A stretch of 35,126 nucleotides of DNA from Ilumatobacter sp. GTDB lineage: Bacteria > Actinomycetota > Acidimicrobiia > Acidimicrobiales > Ilumatobacteraceae. The translations under genes were made by a program, and so were the position numbers. This document shows, piece by piece, positions 12,512 through 28,369 of the stretch. The stretch spans positions 1-35,126 of the forward strand of contig JABDKP010000129.1 in assembly GCA_013002175.1 (NCBI GenBank), given 5' to 3'. How positions within the stretch are numbered: position 1 is the stretch's first letter; each line of letters opens with the position of its first letter. The notes beneath the pieces are model-generated. The model was not told the origin of the DNA, did not search any database, and was given only the letters and a program-made list of their open reading frames with translations.

Positions 12512-13735
12512 CTAGCGCCTCACGCGGATCGACCTGCGCCACGCGCTGAAGCTCGTGATCGGCCCGTCGGACGGCTTCGCCAGCCACGGCCACGGGTGGA
12601 CCACGGCAGGCACGATCGCCTCGGCCCTGGTGCGAAAGCCGGGCACCGGCGCAAACGTGACGGCCACGTTGCGCACCGTCAGCTCGCGCACAGGGTCGCC
12701 GAGGACGAGCGCCAGATCGCGTGACTCGGCGAGTTCGGCGAGTGTCTCGGTGAGGAACACGAGGCGCTTCGAGCTGAGCCTGAGCCGACCGAGCAGCGGC
12801 TCGTCGAACACGAACACGACCGGCAGCTCAGGATGTGCGACGAGCGCCGGATCGGCGCGCCCGAGCGATTCCGCAGTGAGCCACACGAGGTCGGGAACGC
12901 GGTTCTCGACGACGTGGGTCGGGCCGACCGTGCGCCGCCCGTGCGGATCGCTGCGCAGCTCGACCGGCTCGTCGACCGGTGTCAGCGGGGGGTTGTCCGG
13001 CCAGTCCTCGATCGGGCACCAGTGTTCGAGCTCGCACATCGTGCACAGTGCAGCAGCCCGCCGCTCCACCTGGTACCGGCTGAACCCGTAGTGCTTGTCG
13101 GACCCGACGCCGGTCGTCCACTGCCAGCCGAGCCGGTTGGCCGCCCGCGACCCGTCGAGCAGGTGCCGGAAGAACTCGTCCTCGCCGTCGCGCCACGGCC
13201 GCCCCTCGCGGACGGCCCACTGGCTGGCGAGCCACATCCGGGCCTGGTTGACGATCCAACCGTCGGCGTGCAGCTCACCGACGTTGGCGGTGATGCACGC
13301 CATCTCGTCGCTCCACGCCTCGGCGGCCGGCGCGGTCGGCGGCAGTTCGTTGTGCACCCCGTGGCGGGTGTGGGTGCCGAGGCGGGCGTACCAGTGGCGG
13401 GCGAACTCCTGCCACAGCAGCTCGTCGCGGTACCGCTTGACGTCGGGGTCGGGCCCGCCCGCGACGTGGTGCCAGACGTCCCGCAGCGGCAGCAGGCCGT
13501 GGCGGATGTACGGCGACAGCCGCGACGCACCGCGCCGCGAACGCGGGAGGACGTCGCTGCGGTGGCGGGCATAGCCGTCGACGTCGAACGCGGCGAGCGC
13601 CTCGTCGGCGGCACGCTGACCGCCCCGGAACGCCGGAGAGCCGGCGACGTCGTCGCACACGAGGTGGCCGAGATGCTCGGCGACGAACGCCTCGGCAGCG
13701 CCCCGGCCGGTCGGTGGTGGCTGCAGAACTTCCAT
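12512..13735 (-). CDS. Photolyase/cryptochrome relative with FAD domain first, Rossmann domain last
   Basis: The 407-residue protein opens with the helical FAD-binding domain of DNA photolyases: GASRLSPYIRHGLL near 69-82, LLWQEFARHW, DGWIVNQARMWLASQW, then DGSRAANRLGWQWTTG and GSDKHYGFSRYQV near 200-222. Normally this follows an N-terminal alpha/beta antenna domain. Here nothing precedes it. Residues about 275-407 instead carry a Rossmann-like segment (DLVWL with L-x-RADPAL, PVVFVFDE, RLVFLTETLAEL, LALVLGDP, ending VHPWPWL and SFSAWRR) that resembles that antenna domain. This suggests a circular permutation. A cysteine group C231-x2-C234-x5-C240 sits at the end of the FAD domain. DNA repair or light sensing is inferred from the family only. 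The start lacks a clear ribosome site, but upstream sequence enters a repeat. Confidence 0.72.
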   Translation of the reverse strand: MEVLQPPPTGRGAAEAFVAEHLGHLVCDDVAGSPAFRGGQRAADEALAAFDVDGYARHRSDVLPRSRRGASRLSPYIRHGLLPLRDVWHHVAGGPDPDVKRYRDELLWQEFARHWYARLGTHTRHGVHNELPPTAPAAEAWSDEMACITANVGELHADGWIVNQARMWLASQWAVREGRPWRDGEDEFFRHLLDGSRAANRLGWQWTTGVGSDKHYGFSRYQVERRAAALCTMCELEHWCPIEDWPDNPPLTPVDEPVELRSDPHGRRTVGPTHVVENRVPDLVWLTAESLGRADPALVAHPELPVVFVFDEPLLGRLRLSSKRLVFLTETLAELAESRDLALVLGDPVRELTVRNVAVTFAPVPGFRTRAEAIVPAVVHPWPWLAKPSDGPITSFSAWRRSIRVRR

Positions 13736-13749
13736 GCGACACCGACCGA

Positions 13750-13778
13750 GTCAAAGTTGTGCCAGGCACAACTTTGAC
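13750..13778. repeat. 29-bp palindrome, copy 1
   Basis: Arms GTCAAAGTTGTGCC and its exact complement flank a central A: a perfect 14-bp inverted repeat. It begins 2 bases past the stop of the formate dehydrogenase third gene (minus strand) and lies before the photolyase gene. Confidence 0.9.
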
Positions 13779-13780
13779 GC

Positions 13781-14644
13781 TCAGACGTACTGCCAGCCGA
13801 AGCGGCCCTTGACGCAGAGGTGACCGTGGGTGACCTCGTGGTCGGCGGGGGACGTGACCTTGACGATCTGGTTGTCCTGGACGTGCAGTTCCAGGTTGCA
13901 GCCGACACCGCAGTACGAGCACACGGTGCGGGTGACCGTCTGCTCGTCCTCGCGCCACTCCCCCGCCTGACGCAGGTCGAATTCGGTCTTGAACTGCAGC
14001 GCATTCGTGGGGCAGACGCCGATGCAGTTGCCGCAGTAGACGCACGCGGAGTCGGGCAGCGTCACGTCGAACTCGGTCGAGATCCGGTTGCCCATCCCCC
14101 GCCCGGACATCGCGATCGCAAACGTGAACTGGGCCTCCTCGCCGCACGCATCGACGCACTTGTAGCAGAGGACGCACTTGTCGTAGTCGCGGATGTACAG
14201 GTTGTCCTGCACTTTCACCGGTTCGCTGATCGTCTCCCCGCCCTCGACGTACCGGCTGGTGTCCGCGCCGTACTGCTTGGACCACTCGTTGATCTGCGGC
14301 GCCTCGCTGAGATCGGTGCTCGTGCCGAGGAACTCGAGCACCATCCGGCGGCTGTGGCGAACGCGCTCGGAGTCGGTGCTGATCACCATGCCGTCCTCCG
14401 CCGGGCGCGAGCACGACGGCACGAGCGTGCGATTGCCCTCCACTTCGACGACGCAGACGCGGCACGCGTTCACCGGCGTGAGGTTCTCGGCGTAGCAGAT
14501 CGTCGGCGTGTCGACCCCGTGCGCAGTGCACGCATCGAGGACGGTGCCACCCTCGGGCACCGTCACGTCCGTGCCGTCGACGCGTACGCTCACCTCCGAC
14601 AACGTTGTGCCTGGCACAACTTTGTCGTTGTTCGGCTGGGTCAT
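13781..14644 (-). CDS. Formate dehydrogenase Fe-S subunit carrying the detached domain I of the catalytic chain
   Basis: This 287-residue protein has three Fe-S modules. A [2Fe-2S] ferredoxin domain has C50, C61, C64 and C78. Two [4Fe-4S] sites follow at C157/C160/C163/C167 and C201/C204/C207/C211. Last comes CSYCGVGC (C242, C245, C249) with C277 in LCVKGRFGW, which is the [4Fe-4S] domain I that normally opens the molybdopterin part of formate dehydrogenase alpha chains. The protein stops right after it. The rest of that chain is the first gene of the operon (18389-16404). Together they equal one FdsA-type subunit, split and re-ordered. The start ATG at 14644 overlaps the preceding stop (ATGA) and has GGAGG six bases upstream. 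Residues 7-16 (DKVVPGTTLS) are encoded by a copy of the 29-bp palindrome. Confidence 0.88.
   Translation of the reverse strand: MTQPNNDKVVPGTTLSEVSVRVDGTDVTVPEGGTVLDACTAHGVDTPTICYAENLTPVNACRVCVVEVEGNRTLVPSCSRPAEDGMVISTDSERVRHSRRMVLEFLGTSTDLSEAPQINEWSKQYGADTSRYVEGGETISEPVKVQDNLYIRDYDKCVLCYKCVDACGEEAQFTFAIAMSGRGMGNRISTEFDVTLPDSACVYCGNCIGVCPTNALQFKTEFDLRQAGEWREDEQTVTRTVCSYCGVGCNLELHVQDNQIVKVTSPADHEVTHGHLCVKGRFGWQYV
14598..14626. repeat. 29-bp palindrome, copy 2, inside a coding region
   Basis: Arms GACAACGTTGTGCC and GGCACAACTTTGTC around a central T, with one arm mismatch. It lies in frame in codons 7-16 of the formate dehydrogenase Fe-S gene and is translated as DKVVPGTTLS. Confidence 0.9.
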
Positions 14645-16404
14645 TGGCGGCCTCCGATCAGTCCGAGGGCGATCGCTGATTGGACGGCGCCGGCCGCGGT
14701 GTGGCCGAGGCCGCAGATCGACGCGTCGGCCATCGCGGTGGCCATGTCGTCGATCAGCAGGTTGCGCTCGTCGCTGAGCGATCCGCGCTCGCGCATCTCG
14801 ACGAGCACTTCGTGCTGACGGGTGGTGCCGACGCGACAGGGGACGCACTGGCCGCACGACTCGTTGCGGAAGAACTCGGCGATGCGGATCAGCAGTGCGG
14901 TGAAGTCGACCGTGTCGTCGAACAGTGTGACGACGCCGGAACCGAGCGTGGTGCCCGCGGCGTACGTGTCCTCGGCGGTGAGGCGGAGATCCAGCTGGTC
15001 TGCGCCGACGAACCCGCCGGCGGCACCGCCCATCAGGATCGCTCGCGTCGTGCCGGTCCGGCCACCCGCGAGCTCGATCAACTCGCCGAGCGTGACGCCC
15101 ATCGACACCTCGTACAGGCCTGGTTGCGCGACGTGGCCAGACACGCAGAACAACCGCGTCCCGGGCGACTTCTCGGTGCCGGCGAAGCGGTACGCGTCCG
15201 CCCCGGACAGCACGATGAACGACGCATTCAGCAGCGTCTCGGGGTTGTTGATGACGGTCGGCTCGCCGAACAGCCCGTGCGTGGACGGGAACGGCGGCTT
15301 GTTGCGCGGCTCGCCGCGGAACCCCTCGATCGACTCCATCAGCGCGGTCTCCTCACCGCAGATGTAGGCACCGGCGCCGCGCCGGATCTCGATGTCGAAC
15401 CGCTTGCCCGAGCCCATCACGTCGTCGCCGAGCAGACCAGCCGTGCGGGCTTGCTCGACCGCGCCGGCCAGCCGGGCGGTGGCGAGCGGGTACTCCCCGC
15501 GGATGTAGATCCAGCCCCGCTCGGCGCCGACGGTGAGGCCGGCGAGTGTCAGGCCCTCGATCACCGCGAACGGGTCCTGCTCCATCACGATGCGGTCCTT
15601 GAACGTGCCCGGCTCGGACTCGTCGCAGTTCGCGATCACGTGCTTCGGACGACCGACCTCGTCGGCGACGCCGCGCCACTTGATCGCCGTCGGGAAGTTG
15701 GCGCCGCCACGGCCGGTCAGTCCGGCGGCACGGATCTCGCCGATCACCGCGTCCGGGCCGATCGCCAGCGCCTTCTCGATCGCCGCGTATCCGCCGTGCT
15801 CGCGATACGACGCGAGCGAAGTCGGGTCGACGACACCGACACGTCGCAGCAGACGCAGGTCCGGCGAGCCCTGCTGCGGCAGCACATACGAGCCGGGCGC
15901 CGCGACCGTCGGCTCGTCGGCCGGCACATGATCGGGCACGCCGCGGCCCTGCACGAACTGCGCGGGCGCCCGCTCGCACTGGCCGAGGCACGGGCCCCGA
16001 TGGACCCGCTTTCCATCCGCTTCGAGCGACTGCGCGAACGCCTCGGCGCCGGCGATGTGGCACGACGTGTCCATGCAGACATGGACGACCGACTCGTCGT
16101 GGCCGGGGTCGTCGGTGCGGAACAGCTCGTAGAACGTCGCCACGCCGTACGCCTCGGCGGGGGCGACCTGGAGCACGTCGCAGACGTGGTTCAGACCGCC
16201 GGGGCTGATCCAGCCGATCTCGGCCTGCAGTGCGTGCAGGGCCGGCAACAGCAGGTTGCGCCGTTGCTTGCGCCGGGCCATCCCGCTGCGGACGACACGT
16301 TCGGTCTCGTGCACGACGACAGCGTCATCGGCGGCGAGCACCGCGGCGACCGCCGCCCGTTCGTCCGCGGTGGACTCGTCGATCGTGAGGTGCAGATCGG
16401 TCAT
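14641..16404 (-). CDS. Formate dehydrogenase NAD-binding diaphorase subunit (NuoE-NuoF fusion)
   Basis: This 587-residue protein fuses a thioredoxin-like NuoE/HoxE-type domain (about 1-160; [2Fe-2S] ligands C110, C115, C139, C143) to a NuoF/FdsB-type flavoprotein (about 195-587). The flavoprotein has the FMN/NAD loop GRGGANFPT (231-239; the usual Gly is Asn at 236), GAYICGEETALMES, and the [4Fe-4S] set C517, C520, C523 and C564. It should pass electrons from formate oxidation to NAD+ in the cytoplasm, as in FdsGB of soluble NAD-dependent formate dehydrogenases. The ATG at 16404-16402 shares one base with the stop of the catalytic gene, and its own stop overlaps the next start, so all three genes are probably translationally coupled. 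Confidence 0.93.
   Translation of the reverse strand: MTDLHLTIDESTADERAAVAAVLAADDAVVVHETERVVRSGMARRKQRRNLLLPALHALQAEIGWISPGGLNHVCDVLQVAPAEAYGVATFYELFRTDDPGHDESVVHVCMDTSCHIAGAEAFAQSLEADGKRVHRGPCLGQCERAPAQFVQGRGVPDHVPADEPTVAAPGSYVLPQQGSPDLRLLRRVGVVDPTSLASYREHGGYAAIEKALAIGPDAVIGEIRAAGLTGRGGANFPTAIKWRGVADEVGRPKHVIANCDESEPGTFKDRIVMEQDPFAVIEGLTLAGLTVGAERGWIYIRGEYPLATARLAGAVEQARTAGLLGDDVMGSGKRFDIEIRRGAGAYICGEETALMESIEGFRGEPRNKPPFPSTHGLFGEPTVINNPETLLNASFIVLSGADAYRFAGTEKSPGTRLFCVSGHVAQPGLYEVSMGVTLGELIELAGGRTGTTRAILMGGAAGGFVGADQLDLRLTAEDTYAAGTTLGSGVVTLFDDTVDFTALLIRIAEFFRNESCGQCVPCRVGTTRQHEVLVEMRERGSLSDERNLLIDDMATAMADASICGLGHTAAGAVQSAIALGLIGGRQ
14651..14655 (-). promoter_or_regulatory. Shine-Dalgarno fixing the start of the Fe-S subunit
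   Basis: GGAGG on the minus strand with 6 bases to the ATG at 14644. It decides the start: a GTG just downstream of the palindrome has GGAG directly abutting it, with no usable spacing. The palindrome is therefore inside the reading frame. Confidence 0.7.
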
Positions 16405-18389
16405 CAGGTCGCCGCAGCCGCCGGAAGCTTGTCGATGCGGATCGAGGCCGCCTTGAACTCGGACGTGCCGGACTTCCTGTCCCACGCGTCGTTCGTCAAC
16501 TGGTTGATGTCGACGAGGTCGGGGAAGTGGAACGTGGTGAACGTCAACCCCGCCGGGATGTCGGGCTGGAACCGCACCGACATCTCGACGGTGCCGCGCG
16601 GCGACGACACCTTGACCCGCTCGCCGTCGACGATGCCGAGGGAGCGTGCGTCGGCGGGGTTGATGTCGAGCGCCTCGCCATAGCGGATCGGCGAGTCGTA
16701 CCCGCCCGACTGGACGCCGGTGTTGTACGAGTCGAGTGAGCGGCCGGTCGTGAGCCGCAACGGGAACTGCTCGGTCAGCGCTTCGGCCGGGCCGATGTGA
16801 TCGACGACCGAGAACGGTGCGGGGCCGCGGCCGCCGAGGTCGTCCTCCCACAGCCAGCCGTGGAGGAACGGGCTGCCGGGGTGGTCGAGGTCCGGGCACG
16901 GCCACTGCAGCCCGCCCTCGGCCTCGAGGCGCGCGTACGACATCCCGGCGTGCAGCGGTGACAGCGACCGCAACTCGTCCCACAGCTTCTCCGGAATCGG
17001 CGCGCCGCACTCGTCACCGCAGTCGCCGACGATGTCGACGCCCATCCGTCGCGCGAGTTCGGCGAGGATGTCGACGTCGTGCCGCGCCTCGCCCGGCGGT
17101 GCCACGGCGGGACGCGTGAGCTGGACCCGCCGCTCGCTGCTGGTGACCGTGCCGTCCGATTCGGCCCAGGCGACCGATGCCGGGAACACGACGTCGGCGA
17201 GCTCCGCGGTGCGGGTCATGAAGATGTCCTGCACGATCAACGTGTCCAGGCCGGCGAGGAGTTTCCGGGCGTGCTGGATGTCCGCCTCGGAGTCGGCCGG
17301 GTTCTCGCCCAGCACATAGGCCGCCGTCAGCTCGCCGCGCCCCATCGCCTCGAACATCAGCGTGAGGTGCAGACCTGGCGTCGGGTTCAGCGCCGTGCCG
17401 TACACCGCTTCGAACTTGCCGCGGTCGTCGTCGTCGTCGATGTCCTGGAAGCCGGGCAGCTTGTTGGGCAGCGCGCCCATGTCGCCGCCGCCCTGGACGT
17501 TGTTCTGCCCGCGCAGCGGAACCAGCCCGGACCCCCAGTGCCCGACGTGACCGGTGAGCAGTGCCAGGTTGCACAGCGCGAGCACGTTGTCGACGGCGTG
17601 GTGGTGCTCGGTGATGCCGAGCGTCCAGAGGATCTGCGCCTTGTCGGCGGCTGCGTACACGTGCGCCATCTCGCGGATCGCGTCAGCGGGTACCCCCGTG
17701 ATCTCAGCGGTCCGTTCCAGGGTGTAGGGCTCGACCGCGTCCTTGAACTCGTCGTAGCCGGTCGTCGAGTGGTCGATGAACGCCTGGTTGACGAGACCGG
17801 CGTGGATGATCTCGCGGGCGACGCCGTTCGCGAGCGCGACGTCGGTGCCGACATCGATCCCCAGCCAGACGTCGGCGAACTTCGACGACGACGTCCGCCG
17901 CGGGTCGACGCAGTACATCGTCGCCCCGTTGTCGAGGCCCTTCATCAGATGATGGAAGAAGATCGGATGCGCCTCGCGCGCGTTCGACCCCCACAGCAGC
18001 ACGACGTCGACTTCTTCGATCTCGCGATACGAGGCCGTGCCGCCTCCCGCCCCGAACACTGTCGCCAGACCGACGACGGAGGGAGCGTGTCAAGTTCGGT
18101 TGCACGAGTCGATGTTGTTCGACCCGATCACCGCGCGGGCGAACTTCTGGGCGAAGTAGTTGACCTCGTTCGTCGCCTTCGAGCAGGAGAACATCCCGAA
18201 CGCATCGGGAGCGTCGCCCGACGCGATCGCGTCCCTGGCTCGGCCCAGCCCCTCGGCGGCCCGGTCGAGGGCCTCGTCCCACGTCGCGGCGCGCAGTGCG
18301 CCGCCCTCACGGATGTACGGGGAGGTCAACCGCTCGAGCGCGCCGGCCGGACGCCCGTTCTTCCGTCGCTTCCCGTTCCCTCGTTGCAT
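16404..18389 (-). CDS. fdhA: Formate dehydrogenase catalytic subunit, selenocysteine-containing, lacking domain I
   Basis: Two open frames, 18389-18093 and 18089-16404, are in the same frame and separated only by TGA at 18092-18090. Around it the protein reads SCNRT-(UGA)-HAPSVVGL, the active-site motif of formate dehydrogenases where Sec or Cys binds molybdenum and the next His is catalytic. Reading UGA as Sec100 gives a continuous 661-residue chain. GSNAREAHP, VDPRRT, RGQNNVQGGGDMGALP and GENPADSEAD follow in the family order, ending in the molybdopterin-dinucleotide-binding domain. A SECIS-like hairpin follows the UGA. The usual N-terminal [4Fe-4S] domain is absent: the chain begins near RLTSPYIREGG. 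That domain is in the third gene of the operon. The ATG at 18389 is the most upstream start available. A nonsense mutation is the alternative, but the hairpin argues against it. Confidence 0.88.
18061..18092 (-). promoter_or_regulatory. UGA selenocysteine codon and bacterial SECIS hairpin
   Basis: Counting the U of UGA (18092) as 1, bases 16-21 GTCGTC pair with 27-32 GGCGAC (six pairs, one G-U), leaving the loop GGTCT at 22-26. As I recall the E. coli fdhF SECIS, it has the same GGUCU loop at the same positions, with the key G23 and U24 and a functional U17. All four features are matched here. The hairpin should recruit SelB to decode UGA 18092-18090. Confidence 0.8.
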
Positions 18390-22861: not shown

Positions 22862-22889
22862 TCAAAGTTGTGCCAGGCACAACTTTGAC
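22861..22889. repeat. 29-bp palindrome, copy 3
   Basis: Perfect arms GTCAAAGTTGTGCC around a central A, identical to copy 1. Its first base is the last base of the GGDEF gene stop codon. Confidence 0.92.
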
Positions 22890-23278: not shown

Positions 23279-23307
23279 GACAAAGTTGTGCCTGGCACAA
23301 CTTTGTC
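23279..23307. repeat. 29-bp palindrome, copy 4
   Basis: Perfect arms GACAAAGTTGTGCC around a central T. Compared with copies 1 and 3, the second base and its partner are both exchanged (T-A to A-T), keeping the pair. It lies 5 bases past the HAD remnant. Confidence 0.92.
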
Positions 23308-23945: not shown

Positions 23946-26777
23946 CTACGACTCGGGCAGGCGGTAGGCGTCGATCGTCGGCTTCAGTGGGCGGGCGTAC
24001 CAGAGCGGACGGCGCAGGCCGGTGTCGTTGGTGGTGCCTGCGGGACGGGTCTTCGACAGCCAGTCGAGGTACGCCTCGCGCGACTTGGCGGTGTCGACGA
24101 CGACGTCGCCGTACTGGTCGCCTTCCTCGGCCGGGGTGACCCGCACCCGCTGGTGCCAGCACTGCATGCCGGAGATCGGGTCGGGTTGCACGCAGAACGT
24201 CGCGTTCTGGTGCACGCCGGTGTCGTGCCACCAGATCCGGCCGGTGTCCGGGTCGGCCGACTCGTACGACTCGTTGCCCTTCTCACGGGTCAGCTTCCAC
24301 GTCGTGCCGTCCTGGGCGATGTTCGCCTTGCCGGCCGCCCAGCTGCGGCCCTGCTCCTCGTCGAGCCGCCAGCGACCCATGTGGTGCGACGCCGCGACGA
24401 CGCCGGGACGGATGCCCTCGGTGCGCCACGCCTGGATCACGAAGTGGCCGATCCGCGTGCTGATCCGCACGAGGCCGCTCTCCTCGATGTGCAGCTTCTC
24501 GGCGTCCTCCGGGTGGATCCACAGTGGGTGGCGGTGGCTGATCTCGTTCAGCCACTTCGAGTTCGCGGACCGCGTGTGGATCAGCGTCGGGATGCGGAAG
24601 GTCGGCAGCAGGATCCGCTCGTCGCCCGCGAGGTCGAGGTCCTCCCAGTGCACGTGGCTGGGGATCCACGTCGGCGTCGAGTACTCGGGCCAGCCCCAGT
24701 CCTTCAGCGTGGTCGAGAAGATCTCCAGCTTCTTCGACGGCGTCGGGAACCCTTCCTTCAGCTCGCCGTCGATCTCGATCGCCGGTGACCCGTCGCCGAG
24801 CTTGGCCAGTTCGGTCGACGCGAAGCTCTGCTCGGAGCCGTCGAACACGCCGACCGTGCCCGGCTTGCGGAACACGCCGGACGCGTCCTGCGTGCAGTCG
24901 GCCACCGCAGCGGCGTCGACGGGCCGCTCGTACGGCGTGTAGGGATCGGTCGGCACGGCGTACGCGCCGCGGTCGCGCATGAACTCCAGCGGCGTCTGAC
25001 CGGCGGCCGCCGCATCGTCGGCGAGGCCGGGCACCTCCTCGGCGAAGATGTGCGCGTAGTACTCGTCGACGCTGATCGGCGTGCCGGGACGCTCGTCGGA
25101 CTCGAACCATTGCCGGATGCCGAGCGAGCCGTCGGGGTCGATCCGCCACGACAGGTCGATCCAGAACTCGTTCTCCTCCCAGACCTCGCCGGGGTTGAAC
25201 TCGTGCGACCGACGGGTGTGGTCGATCGTCTCACCCTTCAGCTCCGCGTAGCGGCGGAACACCGATTGCCGGAAGCCGATCCAGCGACCGGCATGCGTCT
25301 CGAACGACGCAAGGTCGTGACGCTCGGCGGCCACACCCATCGGCAGCACGTAGTCGGCGAACCACGACGTCTCCGACCACGTCGGCGTCAGCGCGACGTG
25401 GCAATTGACCTTGTCGCGGTCCTTCAGCGCTTCGAGCCAGGTGAAGCCGTCGGGGTTCGTCCAGATCGGGTTGTACACGCGCGAGAAGTACGTGTCGAGC
25501 TTGCCGCGACCCTCCTTCAGGAAGTGCGGCAGCAGGATCGACATCTCGTGGTACGACAGCGGGTACTCCTTCGGCCAGCTGAGCTCGTTCCACTTCGTCA
25601 GCGGCGGCGCGCCCTTCGTCTGGTGCGGCACGAACTTGTTCCACCCGTTGCCGGACGTGCCGCCCTCGGTGGCGACCGAGCCGGTCAGCACGTTGAGGAA
25701 GAACAGCGACCGCGCGACCTGCCACCCGCCGAGGTTGCCGGCGCCGGCGGCGCGCCAGTTGTGCGACGCGAACTTCGTCGGGTGCTTGCCGATGACGGTC
25801 GCGATCTCGCGGATCTGGTCCGCCGAGACACCGGTGATGTGTTCGGCCCGCTCGGGGGTGTACTCGCTGTAGTGGTCCTTCAGCGCCTCTTCGACCGAGT
25901 CGAACGTCTGCGGGAGGTGCGGGTACAGCTCGGCGAGGAACGTCTCCCAGTTCACCCAGCGACGCACGAAGTCGCGCTGCCAGGTGCCGCTCTCCAGCAG
26001 CAGGTGGGCGATCGACAGGCACAGGAACGCCTCGGTGCCCGGCCACGTCGGCAGCCAGTGATCGGCCTTCGAGCCCGTGTTCGACAGCCGCGGGTCGACG
26101 CAGATGACGGTCGCCCCGTTGCTCTGCGCCTCGATGATCCGCTGCGCGTGCGGGTTGAAGTAGTGGCCGGCCTCCAGGTGCGACGAGATCAGGAAGATCA
26201 CCTCGGCGTTGGCGAAGTCGCTGGACGGGCGGTCGTGACCCATCCAGCTCTGGTACCCGATGCGGGCGTTCGACGAGCAGATGTTGGTGTGGCTGTTGTG
26301 GCCGTCGGTGCCCCATGCCTTCAGCACGCGGTCGGCATAGCCGTCCTCGCCGGGCCGGCCGACGTGGTACATCACCTCGTTGTGGCGGTCCTCCTGGAAT
26401 GCCGTGCGGATCCGCGCGCCGATCTCGTCGAGCGCCTGGTCCCAGCTGATCCGCTCCCACTGCCCGCTGCCGCGCTCGCCCGTCTGCTTCAGCGGGTAGA
26501 GCACCCGCTCGTTGTCATAGATCTGGTTCAGCGTCGCCGGGCCCTTGGCGCAGTTGCGGCCGCGGCTGGCGGGGTGCTCGGGGTTGCCCTCGATCTTCGC
26601 GATCTCGCCGGTCTCGTCGTCGAAGTAGGCCACCAGGCCACACGCCGCTTCGCAGTTGAAGCACGTCGTCGGCACGAGCGTGTAGTTGCGCTCGACCTTG
26701 TCCGGCCATGCCTTCGCGTCGAGTTCGGTCCAGTGGTGCCACTGCTCGTGTGGCGGGTACTTGCGAAGATCGGTCAT
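23946..26777 (-). CDS. Molybdopterin oxidoreductase catalytic subunit, substrate unknown
   Basis: The 943 residues belong to the DMSO-reductase superfamily. The [4Fe-4S] ligands are C39, C42, C46 and C76 (TTCFNCEAAC and GRNCAKGPA). HTNICSSNAR (163-172) sits where the molybdenum ligand is expected, giving C167 as the likely ligand. VICVDPRLSNT follows in the cofactor region, and the last ~200 residues form the dinucleotide-binding domain. No twin-arginine signal is present, so the enzyme should stay in the cytoplasm. It is encoded after a FeS-NrfD fusion gene, making a quinone-linked membrane complex. Formate, sulfite or polysulfide chemistry are all possible from this layout; I cannot choose. 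The ATG at 26777 has GGAG eight bases upstream. Longer frames run through the palindrome and are not used. Confidence 0.88.
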   Translation of the reverse strand: MTDLRKYPPHEQWHHWTELDAKAWPDKVERNYTLVPTTCFNCEAACGLVAYFDDETGEIAKIEGNPEHPASRGRNCAKGPATLNQIYDNERVLYPLKQTGERGSGQWERISWDQALDEIGARIRTAFQEDRHNEVMYHVGRPGEDGYADRVLKAWGTDGHNSHTNICSSNARIGYQSWMGHDRPSSDFANAEVIFLISSHLEAGHYFNPHAQRIIEAQSNGATVICVDPRLSNTGSKADHWLPTWPGTEAFLCLSIAHLLLESGTWQRDFVRRWVNWETFLAELYPHLPQTFDSVEEALKDHYSEYTPERAEHITGVSADQIREIATVIGKHPTKFASHNWRAAGAGNLGGWQVARSLFFLNVLTGSVATEGGTSGNGWNKFVPHQTKGAPPLTKWNELSWPKEYPLSYHEMSILLPHFLKEGRGKLDTYFSRVYNPIWTNPDGFTWLEALKDRDKVNCHVALTPTWSETSWFADYVLPMGVAAERHDLASFETHAGRWIGFRQSVFRRYAELKGETIDHTRRSHEFNPGEVWEENEFWIDLSWRIDPDGSLGIRQWFESDERPGTPISVDEYYAHIFAEEVPGLADDAAAAGQTPLEFMRDRGAYAVPTDPYTPYERPVDAAAVADCTQDASGVFRKPGTVGVFDGSEQSFASTELAKLGDGSPAIEIDGELKEGFPTPSKKLEIFSTTLKDWGWPEYSTPTWIPSHVHWEDLDLAGDERILLPTFRIPTLIHTRSANSKWLNEISHRHPLWIHPEDAEKLHIEESGLVRISTRIGHFVIQAWRTEGIRPGVVAASHHMGRWRLDEEQGRSWAAGKANIAQDGTTWKLTREKGNESYESADPDTGRIWWHDTGVHQNATFCVQPDPISGMQCWHQRVRVTPAEEGDQYGDVVVDTAKSREAYLDWLSKTRPAGTTNDTGLRRPLWYARPLKPTIDAYRLPES

Positions 26778-26807
26778 GTGGATGGCTCCATCATTCGACG
26801 GGTCGAT

Positions 26808-26836
26808 GTCAAAGTTGTGCCTGGCACAACTTTGAC
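26808..26836. repeat. 29-bp palindrome, copy 5
   Basis: Perfect arms GTCAAAGTTGTGCC around a central T. It begins directly after the stop of the FeS-NrfD gene and lies between two genes of one operon. Confidence 0.92.
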
Positions 26837-28369
26837 TCAGGACAGGGGGACGGATTGGCCGGCGCGGACGAAGGCGGTTTCGGACAGGAACATGCCGACG
26901 AGGGCGCTGACGCCGGCGGCGGCCACGAGGTACGGGTCGGTGATGTCGGCGGCCAGCGCGACGATCACTGCGATGGCGGGGAGCACGACGCCGAACAGCA
27001 CGCCGCCGCGGAACCACGTCGCGTGCTCGCCCCGGGTCATCGCGTGGATCGCGAGTTCGACGTGGCGGCTGCCGTGCGAGGCGAGTTCGACCGCGGTGAG
27101 GAACGCCACCGCCCCGAGCCCGCCGAGCAGCGCCCACCGGACCGCGTCCGGTTCCGGGATCGCCATGAACACGTCGAGGATCGCGTACGCGGCAGCCCCG
27201 GCGACGACGGCGCGGGCGAGCAGCAGCGGCAACAGCAGCGGCGTCTGCCACAGGTCGCGTCCCTCGCACTGGGCGAACAGGTACGCCGTGTAGCCGGCTG
27301 TCGCCGCACCGAGCAGCGCCGCGGGCACAGCGAGGATCTCGAGCGTGCGCGACGAGTCGACCACGCCGGCGAACCACCACAGATATGACACGCCGCCGAA
27401 GGCGCCGAGGACGTACGCCCCCTTGACGAGCCATGACGACCAGTTCGACTTGGTGATCAGGTAGAAGAACCGCATCGGCTGCTTGAGATCGCCGATCAGC
27501 AGCGCACCGGTGACCGCGAGGAAGACCCCCGCGACCATCGGCGGCACCACGCCGACCGCGGCCTGCTCGTCGGAATGCCCCAGCAGCACCATCAACGCGG
27601 CCATCAACATCACCCCACCGGCGATCGCCTTGGTGACGAGGTACCCGGAGACCATCTTGTTCCACGTCGTCGTGTGGGGCGTGGTGTACGTCGTGCGGGC
27701 CACGATGCCGGCGTCCGGATGTCCGTGATGGGTCATCTCCGGGGTCAGACGGTGGTTCTTCGTCGTGTCGGCCCAGATCAGACCGTCGGGCTTGATCTGC
27801 GTCCTGGTCGGGTCGAGCGACGCCTGATCGGCGCCCCGGTAGTACACCTTCGGCTTCGTGTTCTGCTCGGGGGCGCGGACCGCGACGTCCTCACGGCCGA
27901 TGATCTTGCGGACCGGGTCGTCGGGATCGTCGAAGTCGACCACCTTGATCGCCTCGGTCGGGCACACGATCACGCACGACGGTTCGAGGTCCATCTCGAT
28001 GCGGTGGTTGCAGAAGTTGCACTTGTTGGCGGTGTTCGTGTCCGGGTTGATGAACAGCGCGTCGTACGGACATGCGTTCATGCACGACTTGCAGCCGATG
28101 CAGTTGTCGTCCTGGAAGTCGACGATGCCGTTGTCGGCGCGGAACAGCGCATTCGTCGGGCAGATCGTCATGCACGGCGCGTCGTCGCACTGGTTGCACC
28201 GCATCACCGAGAAGTGCCGGCTGGCGTTGGGGAAGTTGCCGGTCTCGATGTACTTGACCCACGTCCGGTTGACGCCGAGCGGCACGTCGTGCTCGCTCTT
28301 GCACGCGATCGTGCAGGCATGGCAGCCGATGCAGGAATCGCTGTCGAGCAAGAACCCGAGTCGGGTCAT
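26837..28369 (-). CDS. Four-cluster ferredoxin fused to NrfD-type membrane subunit
   Basis: The 510 residues combine two normally separate subunits. Residues 1-150 form a DmsB/PsrB-like ferredoxin with four [4Fe-4S] sets: C13/C16/C19/C23, C58/C61/C66/C70, C90/C93/C96/C100 and C117/C120/C132/C136. A linker (150-235) follows. From about 238 to 500 there are some eight membrane helices of NrfD/PsrC type, starting TTWNKMVSGYLVTKA and with LLIGDLKQPMRFFYLITKSNWSSW in an early loop. Electrons would pass between the quinone pool and the molybdopterin subunit encoded next. With no signal peptide, the ferredoxin and catalytic subunit should face the cytoplasm. The ATG at 28369 is preceded by GGGGCGG and directly starts the ferredoxin; the 36-residue upstream extension is Asp/Arg-rich and not family-like. 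Confidence 0.9.
   Translation of the reverse strand: MTRLGFLLDSDSCIGCHACTIACKSEHDVPLGVNRTWVKYIETGNFPNASRHFSVMRCNQCDDAPCMTICPTNALFRADNGIVDFQDDNCIGCKSCMNACPYDALFINPDTNTANKCNFCNHRIEMDLEPSCVIVCPTEAIKVVDFDDPDDPVRKIIGREDVAVRAPEQNTKPKVYYRGADQASLDPTRTQIKPDGLIWADTTKNHRLTPEMTHHGHPDAGIVARTTYTTPHTTTWNKMVSGYLVTKAIAGGVMLMAALMVLLGHSDEQAAVGVVPPMVAGVFLAVTGALLIGDLKQPMRFFYLITKSNWSSWLVKGAYVLGAFGGVSYLWWFAGVVDSSRTLEILAVPAALLGAATAGYTAYLFAQCEGRDLWQTPLLLPLLLARAVVAGAAAYAILDVFMAIPEPDAVRWALLGGLGAVAFLTAVELASHGSRHVELAIHAMTRGEHATWFRGGVLFGVVLPAIAVIVALAADITDPYLVAAAGVSALVGMFLSETAFVRAGQSVPLS

Follow-up and report, generated by a model that had tools for sequence, protein, structure and literature searches.

The use of selenocysteine (Sec), the 21st amino acid, in formate dehydrogenase is already a well-known phenomenon. 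In the text available from PMC5029168, the formate dehydrogenase alpha subunit and the selenophosphate synthetase SelD are named as the most widespread bacterial selenoproteins, and comparable excerpts of two further papers count the Actinobacteria among the selenoprotein-rich phyla (PMC1794560, as of 2006) and report SelA and SelB for sponge symbionts from a range of phyla (PMC5649159). A described system with subunits of similar length is FDH3 (FdhA3/FdhB3/FdhC3) of another actinobacterium, Actinomycetospora chiangmaiensis DSM 45062. According to the accessible sections of PMC7176365, this enzyme is cytoplasmic and NAD-dependent and carries Sec in its alpha subunit FdhA3, FDH3 subunits were detected by proteomics, and formate removal by Actinomycetospora depends on selenite. 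The three subunits measure 640, 614 and 316 amino acids in the same sections, against 661, 587 and 287 for the genes described here; the likeness is one of subunit lengths only, and both the homology of FDH3 and a split of its catalytic subunit are presumptive. Because this enzyme contains Sec and has subunits of similar length (PMC7176365, same sections), we regard the gene described below as a further example of a known phenomenon. When the open-licence literature was searched for Acidimicrobiia, its order or Ilumatobacter in combination with selenocysteine or selenoprotein, none of the papers listed was devoted, by its title, to the selenoproteins of this class.

Two other enzymes allow a comparison at the level of domains. 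The solved structure of E. coli formate dehydrogenase H (PDB code 1aa6) matches the catalytic gene of our locus (gene 1) at 4.7e-119, and E. coli fdhF encodes one full-length chain with its own Fe4S4 domain, which gene 1 lacks. The NAD-dependent FdsABG type (PDB codes 6tg9 and 9wxb) has NuoE/F and NuoG-like parts in common with our cluster, and its single alpha chain holds what genes 1 and 3 share out here, with gene 1 matching residues 307–931 of 6tg9_A and gene 3 matching the first 300 residues of an alpha chain of this type. Unlike in the FdsABG type, NuoE and NuoF are fused in our cluster. FdsA is a Cys enzyme.

The stretch analysed, referred to as the window, comprises 35,126 nucleotides of DNA from Ilumatobacter sp. 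Gene 1 lies on the minus strand (16404..18389), with the ATG at 18389 as its likely start, and encodes a formate dehydrogenase catalytic subunit of 661 residues with Molybdopterin and Molydop_binding domains. Its frame, followed on the minus strand from 18500 to 16404, contains a single internal stop, a TGA at 18092–18090, and ends with a TGA at 16406–16404. Counted from the ATG at 18389, the internal TGA is codon 100, and it occupies position x of the active-site motif SCNRT-x-HAPSV; the minus-strand sequence starting at 18092 is TGACACGCTCCCTCCGTCGTCGGTCTGGCGACAGTG. An earlier first-pass annotation had reported one TGA interrupting an otherwise open frame at this motif, and our computation reproduced its coordinates.

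The same codon is TGA throughout the close relatives. The 395 genomes of the class that we searched yielded at least 140 matches covering the codon at 58% identity or more; these come from at least 138 genomes, and each has at least one TGA. Among the class matches listed, one of 61% identity (G339) did not reach the codon. We read 95 of the 140 listed matches base by base, together with the best 80 of 573 relatives in the named genomes, all 80 of which carry TGA. The site is thus TGA in 175 of 175 loci read in this way (95 from the whole-genome search and 80 from named genomes, the window included and some genomes occurring in both sets), 171 of which were identified by one motif and four others separately. 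Since all 175 loci share TGA at this codon, a sequencing error is very unlikely, and the same conservation led us to reject a pseudogene. A phylum search yielded further loci (L198–L214) with TGA in 17 of 17, some of them repeats. The phylum sample of 396 genomes contained at least 40 matches of at least 60% identity, of which 35 have TGA, four are stop-free and one falls short of the codon, and the relatives in plasmid records were all below 60% identity. Relatives with two or more TGA codons were considered for a second in-frame Sec, which was rejected, as in the four inspected (G034, G117, G272, G317) the extra stops are terminal or lie upstream of the likely start. The split Sec enzyme also occurs in metagenome records titled Spirochaetaceae (L122, 65% identity) and Acidobacteria (L123, 64%), two loci that would reflect either horizontal transfer or mis-binning.

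Downstream of the TGA, and separated from it by a spacer of 12 bases, we find a hairpin (18061..18077, minus strand) that sequence, folding, covariation and third-base constraint identify as a SECIS element. Its arms, 18077–18072 (GUCGUC) and 18066–18061 (GGCGAC), form six base pairs, one of them U-G, and enclose the loop GGUCU (18071–18067); with the T of the TGA numbered 1, the stem consists of bases 16–21 and 27–32. A 6-bp stem with this loop had been proposed in the first-pass annotation, and it lies exactly where it had been placed. The accompanying comparison with E. coli fdhF also holds, in that TGA, U17, G23, U24 and GGUCU occupy the same positions in the window and in 40 bases confirmed as fdhF. 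In the E. coli fdhF hairpin U17, G23 and U24 matter, and U17 is a bulge. The available part of PMC4513850 contains nothing on U17, G23 or U24. Each of 130 distinct sequences from the window and its relatives has U at position 17, and the opposite base 31 is A or G in 127 of them, so that U17 can pair here; the base named in the first-pass annotation is in place, but it is able to pair rather than forming the bulge of fdhF-type elements. In one sequence (L123:4998-5042) U17 cannot pair with C31, and a G16-C31 pair is possible if U17 bulges, as it does in E. coli.

The hairpin of 18 nucleotides alone was more stable than 199 of 200 shuffled sequences (z = -3.05). The 41-nucleotide element was no better than its shuffles (z = +0.31; 117 of 200 at least as stable), and folding energy alone is therefore weak evidence in DNA as GC-rich as this. 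A search of the window against Rfam at gathering scores gave no match, and RNAalifold, unprompted, recovered five of the six stem pairs. An extended lower stem (columns 1–9 with 33–40) was tried and is not claimed, since it is only 88.8% paired and two of its pairs are broken in 52 and 41 of the 130 sequences.

Conservation, unlike folding energy, is strong evidence for the hairpin. In 91 non-redundant genes (loci L016–L129; only codons for the majority residue counted, 80 to 91 of 91 per column), third-base entropy is zero at codons +5 to +9, which lie over the hairpin, while the minimum elsewhere is 0.49 among 281 other columns, and Gly +7 is the sole Gly column in which GGT leads. In more distant loci codons +5 and +9 do vary, for the most part in step with each other (GTG with GCC). 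For covariation we used the 130 distinct 45-base stretches obtained from the 175 loci, in which 99.2% of stem cells are paired and 10 cells show double-sided changes, and pairs 16-32 and 17-31 are each broken in three sequences. The observed percentage of pairing, number of double-changed cells and covariation score were reached by none of 500 shuffles; for the number of double-changed pairs 15 of the 500 reached the observed value, and for the number of pair types 14. Pair 18-30 is CG in 124 sequences and GC in six, all six from the window's own family, so that this exchange may represent one event within the alignment; outside it, the same exchange is found in two genomes of family f67 (L205, L209). 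Pair 19-29 is GC in 125 sequences, AU in four (two from family f39 and one each from f36 and f1) and GU in one. Shifting the 3' partner by three columns produced 31 double-changed cells against 10 in the proposed register, but the shifted register is only 82.4% paired and scores 0.130 against 0.201.

Whether Cys relatives keep the same downstream bases had been raised in the first-pass annotation, and in nine of nine examined the site reads TGC or TGT and GGT has disappeared from the loop position, where GGA, GGG or GGC now stands. Four of these loci, from one genus of the same phylum (G512, G542, G698, G729; 60–61% identity), encode a Cys-type split enzyme in which TGC or TGT replaces the TGA of the window gene within SCNRT-x-HAPSV, and the loop codon is GGA or GGG. 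They have the same split and gene order as the window, and tRNA-Sec exceeds its cut-off in only one of the four genomes. The other five are full-length relatives of 41–42% identity (L130–L133, L136) with TGC at the site and GGG or GGC as loop codon. Two loci of 42–43% identity (L134, L135) have TGA, and in these GGT is kept along with six standard pairs, including U-A at 18-30.

The genome to which the window belongs (3.33 Mb in 191 contigs, 89.2% complete) encodes the machinery for Sec. It contains a tRNA-Sec with anticodon UCA (65.1 bits, cut-off 47), selB (266.9 bits, cut-off 242.25) directly preceded by selA (334.9 bits, above cut-off), and selD (376.3 bits, cut-off 125), so that all four components that the first-pass annotation had proposed to look for are present, each over its cut-off; fdhD is also found (158.5 bits, cut-off 140.9). 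The selD gene (L014, G000:C113:2836-3759, minus strand) itself has an in-frame TGA within SHGAG-x-GCK, a position at which other SelD proteins have their active-site Cys, and for this reason SelD, too, is probably a selenoprotein in this organism.

Across the class, tRNA-Sec was found in 261 of 395 genomes, namely in 118 of the 138 listed with the Sec gene and in 143 of the 257 without it (Fisher p = 5e-10, a value that ignores relatedness among the genomes). The 20 Sec-gene genomes with no tRNA-Sec match are mostly incomplete assemblies whose congeners have it. Ten of them were searched again with looser filters and gave no clear tRNA-Sec: three had matches of 47–48 bits, just over the cut-off, which span 70–82 bases only and which we take for other tRNAs, and the remaining seven had nothing over the cut-off. 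Two tRNA-Sec matches per genome (E ≤ 1e-8), which may mean either a duplicated gene or a variant tRNA, are present in G301, G372, G384 and also several members of genus g88. Small genomes of about 1 Mb from genus g88 (family f34, same class; G005, G011, G025, G033) have a tRNA-Sec of about 75 bits and a SelB-like gene that covers nearly the whole model at 188–195 bits, below the cut-off; these four are absent from the 138 genomes listed with the formate dehydrogenase Sec gene.

Taken as a whole, the data are best explained by insertion of Sec at the TGA (18092–18090) by means of SelB and the hairpin, in a three-gene, NAD-linked formate dehydrogenase, and we hold this reading with very high confidence. 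It agrees with the first-pass annotation, in which the UGA was likewise read as Sec, and it is supported by the machinery together with fdhD, by conservation of the codon, by the invariant third bases and the compensatory changes (18-30, 19-29) of the hairpin, by loss of the SECIS in Cys relatives, by the higher frequency of tRNA-Sec in class genomes with the Sec gene, and by the selenium dependence published for the Actinomycetospora system (PMC7176365). The TGA could instead be a true stop or a disabling mutation, leaving either a broken gene or two separate polypeptides, and mechanical ORF calling does yield a 551-aa fragment from 18059. The TGA is, however, kept in all 175 related loci inside an otherwise conserved frame, third bases are fixed over the hairpin and the genome encodes the Sec machinery, which together make termination extremely improbable. 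The 551-aa fragment also bears on the expectation of the first-pass annotation that gene callers would split this gene. That expectation is borne out by the mechanical calling; it is not general, as the sections of PMC7176365 at hand give a RefSeq accession for the 640-aa selenocysteine FdhA3 and none for the organism's two other FdhA, and annotation thus sometimes copes with a Sec codon.

It could also be argued that the codon is read through with insertion of another residue, for example Cys, Ser or Trp delivered by another tRNA. The identity of the inserted residue is a prediction from sequence, and natural variants with Cys at this position do exist. Against this stand the presence of selA and selD, the TGA of selD itself in SHGAG-x-GCK, the assignment of the tRNA with anticodon UCA to the tRNA-Sec family, and the selenite-dependent formate removal in the related Actinomycetospora system (PMC7176365, accessible sections), and we consider a residue other than Sec very improbable.

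Returning to Sec as the preferred reading, the cluster shows how the enzyme is divided. The stop of gene 1 and the ATG of gene 2 share one base (TGATG). Gene 2 (14641..16404, minus strand, 587 aa) is a NuoE-NuoF fusion with FMN, NAD and Fe-S domains (2Fe-2S_thioredx, Complex1_51K, SLBB, NADH_4Fe-4S) and overlaps by four bases (ATGA) with gene 3 (13781..14644, minus strand, 287 aa), which encodes a NuoG/HoxU-like 2Fe-2S and 4Fe-4S protein (Fer2_4, Fer4, Molybdop_Fe4S4). An FMN/NAD-binding NuoF part and a NuoG-like Fe-S part thus adjoin the catalytic gene, as in NuoEFG-type systems. With its Molybdopterin and dinucleotide-binding domains and an active site of the Sec/Cys-His type, gene 1 has the make-up of a bis-MGD formate dehydrogenase, yet it has no N-terminal Fe4S4 domain, and it matches the formate dehydrogenase alpha model TIGR01591 only over positions 51–672 (614.4 bits, under the cut-off of 666.25). 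The missing domain, Molybdop_Fe4S4, forms the C-terminal part of gene 3, whose residues 240–287 match positions 1–48 of the same model (56.5 bits). The absence of the N-terminal [4Fe-4S] domain from the catalytic polypeptide had been overlooked in the first-pass annotation.

The split was observed in 68 of the 80 named-genome loci, where a separate downstream gene stops 46–79 residues beyond the Fe4S4 motif's first Cys; the sequence of the remaining 12 breaks off before this can be judged, in L118 inside the motif itself. In none of the 80 does an Fe4S4 motif lie upstream within the catalytic frame. Judging from the Cys-type loci, the split appears to be old and independent of Sec. We consider it likely that in this whole actinobacterial lineage of formate dehydrogenases the catalytic subunit is divided where the Fe4S4 domain meets the molybdopterin domains, that the NuoG/HoxU-like subunit of the third gene provides the proximal [4Fe-4S] cluster in trans, and that the split has outlasted both the Sec/Cys exchange and the loss of the SECIS. 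A split catalytic subunit of this kind is not described in the literature searched, including the available portions of PMC13397495, PMC8808070 and PMC7325909.

In the mechanism that we infer, SelB with Sec-tRNA-Sec would bind the hairpin starting 12 bases past the TGA and deliver Sec in place of termination. In the NAD-linked formate dehydrogenase assembled from the products of the three overlapping genes, Sec-100 would then be the residue through which the protein coordinates Mo (or W). Running in the direction of oxidation, the enzyme would oxidise formate at the bis-MGD centre of the gene 1 product, and electrons would pass to the [4Fe-4S] domain provided in trans by gene 3, on to the other clusters of gene 3, and finally to gene 2 with its FMN and NAD site, NAD being the presumed acceptor.

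These observations add a well-supported selenoprotein to the class Acidimicrobiia, and the TGA-bearing gene in at least 138 of 395 genomes points to selenium-linked formate oxidation as a common trait of the class. Natural Cys variants, which lack the SECIS, offer a clean Sec/Cys pair for enzymology, and the split catalytic subunit provides a way to ask how the first electron transfer tolerates a proximal cluster on another chain.

Three further features of the window may be recorded. A second molybdopterin oxidoreductase (23946–27665, minus strand) has an Fe4S4 domain of its own within a single chain, and CSSNARIG takes the active-site position. For the next frame downstream of the cluster (12512–13750, minus strand), the match to DNA photolyases (47.2 bits) is confined to their FAD-binding part. 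The window also has five copies of a palindrome, AAAGTTGTGCC-N-GGCACAACTTT (13753–13775, 14601–14623, 22864–22886, 23282–23304 and 26811–26833), four copies being exact and one having one mismatch, where shuffled sequences lead one to expect none; the copy at 14601–14623 falls within gene 3, around codons 8–15 counted from its ATG, and the genome as a whole holds 58 exact copies (control 0).
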